Below are positions 636 through 4,769 of a stretch of 64,000 nucleotides of DNA, one piece after another. A program made the translations under genes and the position numbers. Within the stretch, counting starts at the first letter, position 1. Every line of letters starts with the position of its first letter. The stretch lies in NCBI GenBank assembly GCA_021792365.1, contig JAJYUT010000002.1:640313-704312 (forward strand). Reading direction: 5' to 3'. Below the pieces are notes generated by a model, which was not told the origin of the DNA, searched no databases, and saw nothing but the letters and a program-made list of their open reading frames with translations. Source of the DNA: Pseudomonadota bacterium (GTDB lineage: Bacteria > Pseudomonadota > Alphaproteobacteria > Dongiales > Dongiaceae).

Positions 636-1607
636 TCAGGCGCTTGACGTCGCCACAAGGATCGACAGCTCGGCCAAAAACAGCAACCCACCTATGATCA
701 GGATGAGGAGCGGGCCGAGCAGCCCGAGCCAACGGGCCGCGTTGCCGCGATTGGGCAGGCGAATGGCGACCTGATGCCGCAGCGCCATGCTGGCCAGCCC
801 CAGCCCCGCCAGGGTCAAGGCCATGCCCATGGCAATGGCCAGCACCATTACCACGCCGCTGGCCAGGATGCCGTTCGCGAAGGCGAAGGTGAGGATGAGG
901 ATGGCGCCGGAGCACGGTACGAAGCCGGCCGCCACCGCCAGCAGGCGTCGGTGCCCCGCCCCGCCGTCGTGATGGCCGCCGTGGTGATGGTGGTCGTGAT
1001 CGTGGCCGCAATGGTGATGTCCACCGGTGCCGCGCAGGCGCCGCCATGCGGCGACCAGCATCCCGCCGCCGACCAGCGCGATCGCGCCGAAGCTGACCAG
1101 GCGAATCCAGTGGTTCTGCTCGACCGGCGAGATCATGGTGCGCGCCAGGATCCAGTGCGCGGCCAGCGCGACCACGATGGCGCCGAGCACGTGGCTGACA
1201 GCGATCCAGCTTGCCATGCCGACCCCGTGGATCGGCCGCGCCCGGTTGCCGATGAAATAGCCGACCACGACCGTCTTGCCGTGCCCCACCGCCAGGGTGT
1301 GGAACGCGCCATAGAGAAATGCGGCGAGAATCCCGGCCAGCAGCGCGGCGGAACCTTCGCCGCGCCGGATCGCGCCGAGCTGCCGGTTGAGTTGGCGGCT
1401 GAGGTCGCGCTCGGCGCGCACCACGAAGCCCGCAGCCTGCCGCCAGAGCGATGGCGACACTGGGGGCTGGGCCGCCGCGGATGGTTCGCCGGCCGGAGCC
1501 GGGAACAGAGGCGCGGGCTGCTGCTGCGCTTGGATCGCGGCCGGCCAGGCCAGCAGGGCCGCAAGCAGCGCAAGCAGCGCCAAGATGTGCCGCGCCCTCA
1601 GCGGCAT
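636..1607 (-). CDS. zevB: NicO-family metal permease, ZevB-like
   Basis: Inner-membrane permease of the NicO/RcnA superfamily (COG2215 type), 323 aa. A signal-like hydrophobic segment lies at residues 8-27, followed by several membrane segments. The family signature HTLAVGHGK is at residues 103-111, and a His-rich loop (about 197-219, many HH and HDH) probably binds metal. It overlaps the preceding DUF1007 gene by 10 bases and is last of four genes behind a Zur operator. Haemophilus influenzae ZevA/ZevB is a DUF1007 plus NicO pair required for zinc acquisition, so zinc is the likeliest substrate; nickel or cobalt cannot be excluded from sequence alone. Confidence 0.82.
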   Translation of the reverse strand: MPLRARHILALLALLAALLAWPAAIQAQQQPAPLFPAPAGEPSAAAQPPVSPSLWRQAAGFVVRAERDLSRQLNRQLGAIRRGEGSAALLAGILAAFLYGAFHTLAVGHGKTVVVGYFIGNRARPIHGVGMASWIAVSHVLGAIVVALAAHWILARTMISPVEQNHWIRLVSFGAIALVGGGMLVAAWRRLRGTGGHHHCGHDHDHHHHGGHHDGGAGHRRLLAVAAGFVPCSGAILILTFAFANGILASGVVMVLAIAMGMALTLAGLGLASMALRHQVAIRLPNRGNAARWLGLLGPLLILIIGGLLFLAELSILVATSSA

Positions 1608-2197
1608 TGGATCGAGATCTCCTGCGGGATGACGAAACCGCCGAAATAAGCGCTCTCGGTATCGTCACGCAGCATGGCGCCGCACGGAACGCCTTCCGCA
1701 TTCTCGAGCATCACGGGATCCTGCTGCGCAAGATCGATCGCCACGTAGTATTCCCGGTCGTAGACCTCGGCCGCGAGCGCCGCGTTGCGGGGATCGACCG
1801 GCTCGGGCAGCGGGACCGTCATCCGGAACGTGACGATGCGGTTCTCGTCCGCGCTGGCGACGAACGCCGTCGGTGCGATTGGGTCGAGTTGCCTGCCGTC
1901 GACGAAGATGTAGGTGAAGTAGTGGAACATCGCGAGATTGGGCAACACGCCTTCGCCGACGGCAGTGCTTTCCCATCCATCAAACACGCCATCGCCGTCC
2001 GCATCGAACTGGCTTAGCAGGCTATCGCTGAAGACGTCGTCGAACACCCAGTCGAGGCGCAGCGCCGTCACCTTTCCGGCCTCGAACACGAAGGTGACCC
2101 TGTTGTCGATGAAGACGTGCGGATGGGCTTGCGCGGGCTCTGCGGCGGACAGCACGGCGGTGAGCAGCGCGCAGGCGGCGGCAGCGCGTCGCTTCAA
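1598..2197 (-). CDS. zevA: DUF1007 periplasmic protein, ZevA-like
   Basis: Secreted DUF1007 protein, 199 aa from a TTG start whose bases overlap the stop of the upstream 101-aa gene; the same frame is open to an ATG at 2278, but that start would put 81 more bases inside the neighbour and displace the signal peptide. From the TTG the product has a clean signal peptide (KRRAAAACALLTAVLSA, cleavage near AQA-HPHVF). The mature N terminus HPHVFIDN is typical of DUF1007 and offers two His for metal. An acidic DADGDGVFDGWE stretch resembles a calcium-binding loop. Its partner downstream is the NicO permease; together they look like ZevA-ZevB of Haemophilus. Confidence 0.8.
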   Translation of the reverse strand: MKRRAAAACALLTAVLSAAEPAQAHPHVFIDNRVTFVFEAGKVTALRLDWVFDDVFSDSLLSQFDADGDGVFDGWESTAVGEGVLPNLAMFHYFTYIFVDGRQLDPIAPTAFVASADENRIVTFRMTVPLPEPVDPRNAALAAEVYDREYYVAIDLAQQDPVMLENAEGVPCGAMLRDDTESAYFGGFVIPQEISIQCR

Positions 2198-2499
2198 TTC
2201 GCGGCGTCCGCAGTGACTGCGAACGTGCAGCCGCAGGTCGGGCAGCCGACCCGCTCGCTGGCGCCGGGCGGCAGCCACCCTTTTGCGATCCGCTGCACGA
2301 GCGCCTGACGTGCGCCGGCAATGAGGGCCGCGTGATTCTCCGGCGCGCCGCCGGGCGCGGCGCGGCAGGCCGCAGCGATGGCGGCAGCCTGGTCGGGCGT
2401 CAGGTCTTCAAAGTACCAGGCGAAGGCACGGTTCGACAGAAAGCCGAAGCCGGCCGCCCCGGCCACCAGTCCCAGCAAGAGTTCCCGGCGGGTGTTCAT
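2194..2499 (-). CDS. Small exported protein with CxxCxC motif in zinc operon
   Basis: A 101-aa protein not assigned to a named family. The N terminus MNTRRELLLGLVAGAAG is a twin-arginine-like or Sec leader, followed by a short helical region and a C-terminal CPTCGC motif (Cys86, Cys89, Cys91; another Cys at 45). It sits between znuA and zevA, 35 bases after znuA and overlapping zevA by four bases, so it is almost certainly co-transcribed under Zur. The Cys cluster and context suggest a periplasmic zinc-binding accessory protein; this is inference. It is a good candidate for an undescribed component of this type of zinc importer. Confidence 0.72.
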   Translation of the reverse strand: MNTRRELLLGLVAGAAGFGFLSNRAFAWYFEDLTPDQAAAIAAACRAAPGGAPENHAALIAGARQALVQRIAKGWLPPGASERVGCPTCGCTFAVTADAAN

Positions 2500-2534
2500 C
2501 CTTGCGCTCCGCGTTGAACGGCGCGGAGTCTACG

Positions 2535-3536
2535 TCACTGCATGGCAGCGAGCAATTGCTTCGCGTTGTGGCGCACGAGCGACAGATAGTCCGGCGCCGG
2601 GCCAGTGGACTCCGACAGCGCATCGGCGTAGAGCGCGCCGCCCATCTTGACACCGGATTCCTCCGCCACCGTTTCCGCCAGACGCGGATCCGTCATGTTC
2701 TCCAGGAAGATGGCCGTCACATGCCCGTCGCGCGCCTGGCGCACGATCTTCGCCAGGTCTTCGGCGGAAGCTTCGGCCTCCGTACTGACGCCCTGGACCG
2801 ACGCGAACTCGATGCCATAGGCCCGGCCGAAATAGTGGAAGGCATCGTGGGAAGTGAGAACGCGCCGACGCTCCTTGGGGATTGCCGCGAACGCGCTCTT
2901 CAACTCCTCATCGAGCGCAGCCATCTCGGCGATCAGCGCATCGGCGTTCGCCGTGAAATCGGCGGCATGAGCGGGCGCCGCTTCCGACAGGCCCTGCGCG
3001 ATATTGGCCGCATAGATCTGCGCATTGGCGAGATCCTGGAAGGCGTGCGGATCGACCGGACCATGATCGTGGTCATGGCCCTCCTCGCCCTCATGCGCCT
3101 CCTCGGCATGCGCGTGTTCTCCGTGGGCATGTTCCTCGTCGGCGTGCTCGTCGTGCGCCTCGTCGTCGTGGTGCTCGTGATCCTCCGCTTCGGTGGCCAG
3201 AGGCGTAACGCCGGCGCTCGCCTCGATGACCTTGCCCTGGAAGCCCGACGATTCCTCGAGGCGATGCAGCCATGGCTCGAAATCCAGGCCATTGGCGACC
3301 AGCACGGCGGCCTTCGCCAGCGTCGTGGACTCACGGGGCCCCGGCTGGAGCACGTGAGCGTCGCCGTCCGGGCCGACCAGCGTCAGAACCTCGACATGCT
3401 CGCCGCCGATTCGCTGGGCGAGATCGCCGAGAATGGAAAAGGTCGCCACCACCGGCAGCCGGTCCTGGGCCCCGGCTGCTTCGGAAATGACCGTCAAAAC
3501 CGCCAGGAACCCCGCCAGCCACATCCAACGACGCAT
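2535..3536 (-). CDS. znuA: Zinc ABC-type substrate-binding protein ZnuA
   Basis: Periplasmic high-affinity zinc-binding protein of the cluster A-I family, 333 aa. Signal peptide at residues 1-23 (cleavage near AGA-QD). Expected ligands are visible: His61 in GDAHVLQP, His164 in VDPHAFQD, and the His of TSHDAFHYFG. A long acidic His-rich loop (about residues 117-158, HDH/HEH/HAH repeats) is typical of ZnuA and may sense or collect zinc. Start is the ATG at 3534-3536, preceded by AGAAGGAG; longer upstream open frame runs through the neighbouring gene and is not coding. A Zur operator lies 17 bases upstream. No znuB or znuC is present in the window. Confidence 0.93.
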   Translation of the reverse strand: MRRWMWLAGFLAVLTVISEAAGAQDRLPVVATFSILGDLAQRIGGEHVEVLTLVGPDGDAHVLQPGPRESTTLAKAAVLVANGLDFEPWLHRLEESSGFQGKVIEASAGVTPLATEAEDHEHHDDEAHDEHADEEHAHGEHAHAEEAHEGEEGHDHDHGPVDPHAFQDLANAQIYAANIAQGLSEAAPAHAADFTANADALIAEMAALDEELKSAFAAIPKERRRVLTSHDAFHYFGRAYGIEFASVQGVSTEAEASAEDLAKIVRQARDGHVTAIFLENMTDPRLAETVAEESGVKMGGALYADALSESTGPAPDYLSLVRHNAKQLLAAMQ

Positions 3537-3553
3537 CGCCGCTCCTTCTCGCA

Positions 3554-3570
3554 ATGTTATAATATAACAT
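3554..3570 (-). promoter_or_regulatory. Zur operator upstream of znuA
   Basis: ATGTTATAATATAACAT is a perfect 8+1+8 inverted repeat (ATGTTATA / TATAACAT) and matches the enterobacterial Zur core GTTATANTATAAC. It lies directly before the znuA ribosome-binding site, where Zn-Zur binding would block transcription of znuA and the three genes after it. The sequence match is direct; binding is inferred. Confidence 0.88.
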
Positions 3571-4357: not shown

Positions 4358-4436
4358 GGGCGGCGCGGTTAACCTTGACGGGGACCTGCCCCGCGACCAT
4401 CTTAGGCCGTATGTGCATCAAGGGGCTAGCATTCAG

Positions 4437-4769
4437 ATGACCACATTCGACGAGCGCGAGAGCAGCTTCGAGGCCAAGTTCAAGCACGACAAGGAGCTGC
4501 AGTTCAGGGTGAACAACCGCCGCAACAAGCTGCTGGGCCTGTGGGCGGCAAACCTGCTGGGCATTCACGGCGCCGACGCGGAGAGCTACGCCAAGGAAGT
4601 GGTCAAGTCTGATTTCGCCACCCCCGGCGACCATGACGTGCTTCAGAAGGTCCTTGCTGACTTCAAGGCCAAGAACGTAGAGATGAGCGAGCATCGTTTG
4701 CGCAAGCAGATGGATGATCTCATGAAGATCGCCGCCGACCAGATCCGCACGGAAGTGAAGAGCGACTGA
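4437..4769 (+). CDS. DUF1476 protein, F1-ATPase inhibitor zeta subunit
   Basis: A 110-aa alphaproteobacterial zeta-type protein; in Paracoccus the zeta subunit binds F1 and blocks reverse rotation (ATP hydrolysis). The start MTTFDERESSFEAKFKHDKELQF and the core RRNKLLGLWAA are typical. The N terminus is predicted as the inhibitory helix, and the rest as a four-helix bundle. Start is the ATG at 4437; earlier in-frame Met codons give a tail without family similarity. It is divergent from the NRDE gene and convergent with the desaturase. Its position between purB and purC is usual in this class. Confidence 0.9.
   Translation: MTTFDERESSFEAKFKHDKELQFRVNNRRNKLLGLWAANLLGIHGADAESYAKEVVKSDFATPGDHDVLQKVLADFKAKNVEMSEHRLRKQMDDLMKIAADQIRTEVKSD

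Follow-up and report, generated by a model that had tools for sequence, protein, structure and literature searches.

The 64,000-nucleotide stretch analyzed here (the window, on contig JAJYUT010000002.1, hereafter C21, of a Dongiaceae genome) carries a Zur box followed by znuA, a gene for a small CxxCxC protein, a DUF1007 gene, and a NicO permease gene; the last two belong to the families that we take to make up ZevA and ZevB of Haemophilus. This locus is probably the substrate-binding protein (SBP) half of a two-locus, Zur-controlled regulon, in which a split Azt-like ATP-binding cassette (ABC) importer would act in trans and ZevAB would form a parallel zinc route. Computation established the gene content, the boxes, the separation of znuA from znuCB, and the conservation of these features; the locus is real and conserved across relatives.

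All four genes are located on the minus strand: znuA at 2535–3536 (PF01297, E-value 2.8e-82), the CxxCxC gene at 2194–2499 (101 residues; no match to any Pfam or NCBIfam family with an E-value of 0.01 or below), the DUF1007 (ZevA-like) gene at about 1598–2197 (PF06226, 7.1e-39), and the NicO (ZevB-like) permease gene at 636–1607 (PF03824, 1.5e-13). They are spaced by 35, −4, and −10 bases, and the DUF1007 start was inferred to be the TTG at position 2197 because of the resulting 4-base overlap with the upstream CxxCxC gene. The Zur box, the perfect odd palindrome ATGTTATAATATAACAT, precedes znuA at 3554–3570 (no strand assigned), with a 13-base box core 19 bases upstream of the znuA start. Its 15-base core is the sole match to TGTTATANTATAACA with up to three mismatches in 64 kb, at 0.03 matches expected from shuffled sequences. 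The palindrome resembles Zur sites of Caulobacter crescentus, the promoters of which were tested by electrophoretic mobility shift assay (PMC4176598). The perfect 17-base palindrome preceding znuA and the four tightly packed genes described in an earlier, sequence-only reading of the window are thereby confirmed. That reading had also noted the lack of an ABC permease; there is indeed no ABC-3 match within the window or elsewhere on C21, both matches of the genome being on C28 and C30.

The genome (5.43 Mb in 30 contigs; completeness 100, contamination 1.56) contains one ZnuA, one NicO protein, and two ABC-3 matches by profile. The strong ABC-3 match (186.9 bits) is on C28, where ATPase and permease genes scoring best to AztA and AztB of NCBIfam lie together with no SBP gene, flanked by a glutamine amidotransferase (GATase) gene and a histidine kinase gene. 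The match on C30 was rejected as a zinc permease, as it scored 297.8 bits with FecCD versus 26.3 bits with ABC-3 and is located beside a Peripla_BP_2 protein. The C28 pair rules out that znuBC is absent from the genome and provides the cognate permease and ATPase sought for an SBP of cluster A-I. The proposal that ZevAB serves instead of ZnuBC fell with this result, since the genome does encode a true ABC-3 permease and an ATPase, preceded by a separate Zur box. The proposal that ZnuA hands zinc to ZevAB in place of ZnuBC is not supported, since an SBP-less znuCB of the matching Azt-like type exists. A second znuA adjacent to znuBC, which had been named as potential counterevidence to these proposals, is not present either, the profile search having found only one ZnuA in the genome.

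In a genome-wide pattern search, the window box ranked best with no mismatch. The second best, CGTTATAACATAACA, has two mismatches, is the only place in the genome at this level, and is located shortly before znuC-znuB on C28. Boxes with up to two mismatches were found before znuA in all 11 genomes of two genera (g1 and g3, the own genome included) and before znuC in 10 of the 11; at the eleventh znuC locus (L060), the contig begins 92 bases ahead of the assigned znuC start. The 22 znuA and znuCB loci contain 23 box matches versus 0.67 in mononucleotide shuffles, including one clearly off-target match (L049) and one overlapping pair (L052). The Fur family of the own genome comprises a Zur-like regulator on C21, an Irr, and a Fur-like protein. 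Both loci are probably under Zur control.

All 17 genomes of the order contain ZnuA and ABC-3 matches, and 13 contain DUF1007. In the 11 genomes of g1 and g3, DUF1007 adjoins the single znuA, and the single strong ABC-3 match is found on a different contig; contig positions place znuA at least about 77 kb from znuCB in eight of them. The complete znuA-CxxCxC-DUF1007-NicO order is tightly spaced in 10 of the 11, and in the eleventh (L055) the contig ends inside DUF1007. Elsewhere in the order, znuA-DUF1007-NicO adjoins zur-znuC-znuB in G016, DUF1007 stands apart in G013, and G001, G012, G014, and G015 have no DUF1007. In family f25, two loci (L142, L143) show a box followed by znuA-DUF1007-NicO, and znuCB, likewise preceded by a box, is on a different contig (L170, L171); in G137 the two halves are separated by at least some 80 kb, and the contigs of G206 are too short to be sure. 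The separation of znuA from znuCB in 11 of 11 genomes speaks against ZevAB as a substitute for ZnuBC.

The identity of ZnuA as first read held for the family (PF01297) and not for the Escherichia coli type, since the protein is closer to AztC/ZniA (268.6 bits with the AztC model, cut-off 350). Its nearest solved chains are ZniA (8svc), followed by 5kzj and AztC (5w56); some of the protein names of solved chains, and the identity of the SBP ligands, were taken from PMC12183173. The ligand-equivalent residues H61, H164, H230, and E279 are kept, fall in blocks aligning with ZniA 8svc, and form the expected set of three histidines and one acidic residue; a His-rich loop is present as well. The ZnuB on C28 shares 56–58% identity with its counterparts in G012 and G013, where the azt-type operon is linked, versus 29–34% with other classes, and the window ZnuA, over part of its length, shares 36–39% with the azt-type proteins of the same two genomes versus 23–32% with other classes. 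Trees of 19 ZnuA and 19 ZnuB proteins from the order gave three classes. All split ZnuA proteins fall into a single group (96/90). The split ZnuB proteins, which are not a group by themselves, cluster with ZnuB from the linked azt-type operons in G012 and G013 (82/93). In Paracoccus, hybrid strains combining the SBP of one zinc system with a permease and ATPase taken from the other were reported to grow in low zinc as poorly as a double SBP mutant, the SBPs being specific to their own permease (PMC7731109). As the lone Azt-like SBP and the permease are of the same class, and SBP and permease must match in Paracoccus, the two are expected partners.

From these data we infer delivery in trans, import by ZevAB, and roles for the small proteins. 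Under zinc scarcity, Zur would leave both boxes; ZnuA would capture periplasmic zinc and hand it over in trans to ZnuB-ZnuC for ATP-driven uptake, and the co-transcribed ZevA, CxxCxC protein, and ZevB would constitute a second, ABC-independent zinc route. ZevA may bind the metal, perhaps via the terminal His-Pro-His, and transfer it to ZevB, with the CxxCxC protein as a putative periplasmic metal-binding helper. Synteny and Zur boxes support the suggestion of the sequence-only reading that two routes are bundled.

An alternative in which ZevA and ZevB receive zinc from ZnuA and stand in for ZnuBC as its membrane partner would account for the tight spacing of znuA and DUF1007-NicO in 10 of the 11 genomes and for their adjacency in the second family (L142, L143). 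It is very improbable in view of the matching Azt-like permease and ATPase behind a Zur box, the specificity of the Paracoccus SBPs mentioned above, and the arrangements found elsewhere in the class. L137–L141 have the same operon beside znuBC: in L137 and L138 (one genus), the four-gene order of the window is divergent from zur-znuC-znuB, and L139, L140, and L141 share this layout except for the CxxCxC gene. DUF1007-NicO is near znuCB, with znuA elsewhere, in G216 and G275, and in G222 znuA, znuCB, and DUF1007-NicO are mutually far apart. Judged by such placements beside znuA, beside znuCB, beside both, or apart, ZevAB goes with the zinc regulon and not with ZnuA in particular. The tempting idea of an SBP serving ZevAB is thereby replaced by a testable one, an SBP and permease acting in trans, with ZevAB as second route.

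In this two-route regulon, ZevAB most plausibly provides a parallel zinc route under Zur control, with metal and direction of transport both putative. The DUF1007 and NicO genes of the window are adjacent, as expected for the ZevAB gene pair, and ZevAB aids growth of Haemophilus influenzae in low zinc according to a review (PMC3872050). The pair of H. influenzae likewise stands in a zinc context, the likeness lying in the two families; unlike there, the pair here follows a Zur box and adjoins the gene of an ABC SBP. In H. influenzae, znuA presumably lies apart from znuBC. Among 290 genomes surveyed in the class, DUF1007 was detected in 78, ZnuA in 222, and ABC-3 in 235; by row reading, ABC-3 matches occur in 75 of the 78 DUF1007 genomes versus 160 of the 212 others. 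In at least 29 of the 78 DUF1007 genomes, to which this count is confined, and at least 24 of them outside the own order, DUF1007 lies within 10 kb of a ZnuA or ABC-3 among the matches listed (ZnuA down to about 224 bits, ABC-3 to 199). The 40 class loci inspected were hand-chosen and are not a fair sample, 11 of the 20 in one batch having been picked for nearby zinc genes. A NicO permease was also found in every examined locus with a DUF1007 match except L055, where the contig ends. Azt-type genes also adjoin DUF1007 on named plasmids of a Thioclava and of Paracoccus alcaliphilus. No literature linking DUF1007 with Zur was found in a search that covered only a minority of subscription papers.

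ZevAB could instead be an exporter of nickel/cobalt, or of zinc, that is only co-transcribed with znuA. The NicO family includes RcnA-type exporters, and the sole NCBIfam match of the window protein is the RcnA-type nickel/cobalt efflux model NF007454 (PRK10019). This match reached 46.1 bits versus a cut-off of 195, and in a tree a 100/100 branch parted 33 DUF1007-linked NicO proteins from three NicO-like proteins beside metal-sensing repressors; on both grounds, the protein was rejected as an RcnA. The efflux control in this tree consists of the three proteins only, which were found as weak tblastn matches; long branches meet there, and the tree was built without 8 of the 27 available class NicO proteins (L114, L116, L129, L144, L146, L147, L150, and L154). 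Clustering of NicO with nickel/cobalt exporters, which the sequence-only reading had named as evidence against itself, was thus not observed with this small control. Zur would open the operon in zinc scarcity, which fits import and counts against an exporter, as does the low-zinc phenotype of H. influenzae cited above. Altogether, an exporter appears unlikely. The NicO protein carries a His-rich loop, and no solved relative was found by sequence.

Several results weigh against a split, Zur-controlled importer with a parallel ZevAB route. Box-like sites with three mismatches are at control level in the own genome, and candidates for further Zur boxes were dismissed there (12 matches with up to three mismatches on both strands versus 14 with the reversed pattern). 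The Fur-family regulator on C21 has Zur as its best NCBIfam model but reaches 129.7 of the 167 bits of the cut-off. In G003, G007, and G011, both halves are on contigs of only 5–27 kb, so that no distance between znuA and znuCB can be given for these genomes. Besides the AztC cut-off, those of AztA (215.9 of 220 bits) and AztB (262.7 of 280 bits) were missed, and the genes are therefore termed Azt-like rather than AztABC equivalogs. The ZnuA tree does not resolve how the split clade connects to the azt-type proteins, and support for the corresponding ZnuB node is the 82/93 given above. Three of the 78 DUF1007 genomes (G066, G076, and G163) are without an ABC-3 match, and in L112, L115, L116, L151–L154, and L156 the sequence read around DUF1007-NicO shows neither ZnuA, ZnuB, nor Zur, and no box. 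Finally, neither DUF1007 nor NicO is mentioned in the accessible text of a study of zinc limitation in Paracoccus denitrificans by RNA sequencing (PMC5387054), so that induction of ZevAB is unsupported in this organism.

The predicted structure of the DUF1007 protein is a beta-sandwich (predicted local distance difference test score, pLDDT, 91.6; predicted template-modeling score 0.86), a fold predicted to resemble the ligand-binding domain of pentameric receptor channels. Sequence comparison to solved structures gave weak EF-hand matches only (E = 0.013 to 0.078); D65, D69, and E76 of an EF-hand-like loop are invariant in the 12 nearer sequences and not in the wider set. A His-Pro-His motif is invariant in 15 of 15 aligned sequences and also in Desulfuromonadales. 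In a wider set of 28 rows, which leaves out DUF1007 matches below 90 bits, 25 contain the motif; the other three are extra rows of L112, L114, and L152, each of which also has a row with it. Since an Ala-x-Ala-like site precedes the motif in 21 of the 25, the mature protein probably begins with His-Pro-His.

In 13 of 13 aligned CxxCxC proteins, R4, R5, C45, H56, C86, C89, and C91 are invariant; the start is twin-arginine-like, with a weak TAT_signal match in three of the 13. Relatives in L137, L138, and L156 keep the C, the H, and CPxCGC, and that of L147 has CPLCGG. The structural model is of low confidence overall (mean pLDDT 65); it is better toward the C terminus, where blocks reach 80–90 and the Cys cluster lies between two strands. 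No solved relative was found by sequence. The gene is located beside DUF1007-NicO without an adjacent znuA in L046, L147, and L156, and by znuB in G014, a genome without DUF1007. By alignment and gene context, the C...H...CPxCGC protein is a family without earlier description that is mostly tied to ZevAB, and it is probably an exported, metal-binding ZevAB accessory. ZevA, the CxxCxC protein, and ZevB, two of which are predicted to be exported and have conserved sets of His or Cys residues, might also handle zinc entirely within the periplasm, loading ZnuA or enzymes with no import into the cytoplasm; in Paracoccus, AztD is reported to transfer zinc to AztC (PMC6689063). Purely periplasmic handling is nevertheless quite improbable, as a NicO permease accompanies DUF1007 in the loci examined, again except L055.

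At the C28 locus, a microprotein of 38 residues with one membrane helix is encoded between the Zur box and znuC (L017:5475–5591, minus strand). Similar open reading frames occur ahead of znuC in every split locus for which the upstream sequence is long enough (10 of 10) and in the two linked azt-type loci of the order, and a profile trained on these 12 frames also detected a cut copy in L060. Of the class loci labeled azt-type, our own call from profile scores rather than from a tree, 17 of 23 matched with E-values no higher than 1e-3 for a database size of 1000. L130 matched at 0.026, L121 and L133 gave values above 1, and L118, L134, and L136 gave no match; in all of these, a look-alike helix was seen by eye before znuC. 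The profile matched 0 of 13 loci of other ZnuABC classes, a figure that covers the position before znuC only because zur directly precedes znuC in several of them. When the profile was run on 6,416 short frames from these loci, those upstream of znuC included, the 15 best matches were all upstream of znuC, and the microprotein is present in all three of L170–L172. The two closest pairs have proportions of nonsynonymous differences (pN) of 0.06 at proportions of synonymous differences (pS) of 0.38 and 0.35, indicating purifying selection, which is weaker in more distant pairs of genus g3 (pN 0.20–0.34, pS 0.42–0.72). The microprotein is also found on plasmids, in Skermanella rosea (WP_203101353.1, annotated as hypothetical) and, by eye, in Gemmobacter and Thioclava; it was not seen on plasmids of Phyllobacterium or P. 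alcaliphilus. No paper on a microprotein of zinc ABC importers was found in a search covering only a minority of subscription papers. It is possible, if a little short of probable, that microproteins of this type (30–60 residues) are a small subunit of the Azt importer and that the twin-arginine C...H...CPxCGC protein and ZevAB form an ATP-independent zinc route, both families being undescribed. The conserved microprotein before znuC is a concrete candidate for a new zinc-importer subunit.

Of known systems, AztABC(D) of P. denitrificans, ZniCBA of Klebsiella and Rhizobium, and TroA of Agrobacterium share the best-matching class and an upstream Zur box with the importer described here; zniCBA and znuA of R. 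leguminosarum are reported to be Zur-dependent (PMC12183173). Unlike in these systems, the SBP gene is located apart from znuCB and together with DUF1007-NicO, and the NCBIfam cut-offs are missed. The divergent znuA/zur-znuC-znuB clusters of Alphaproteobacteria contain the same genes, with DUF1007-NicO after znuA in L137–L141 and L044, whereas the genomes of g1 and g3 hold the halves apart. The BP3077–BP3082 genes of Bordetella pertussis combine a NicO-type putative nickel/cobalt transporter and DUF1007 with SitABCD-like ABC genes; they differ in being linked and in including a TonB receptor (PMC9858536). The genome studied here, which has a single SBP of the family, a single zinc-type ABC permease, and a single NicO protein, offers a clean system for the role of ZevAB.

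Some further observations concern single genomes or genes. G066, G076, and G163 are candidates for ZevAB working alone. In L148 (G085), a Zur-like box with two mismatches at position 4407 lies shortly before a DUF1007-NicO pair, with no znuA in the stretch. G054, another genome of the class, has two ZnuA matches and no ABC-3 match, possibly a true ZnuA without permease or an assembly gap. The NicO proteins of genus g1 have HTLAVGHGK in a conserved motif that reads HALGPGHGK in most others. In the window itself, positions 4437–4769 on the plus strand encode the ATPase inhibitor subunit zeta (PF07345), and the adjoining gene belongs to the TANGO2 family.

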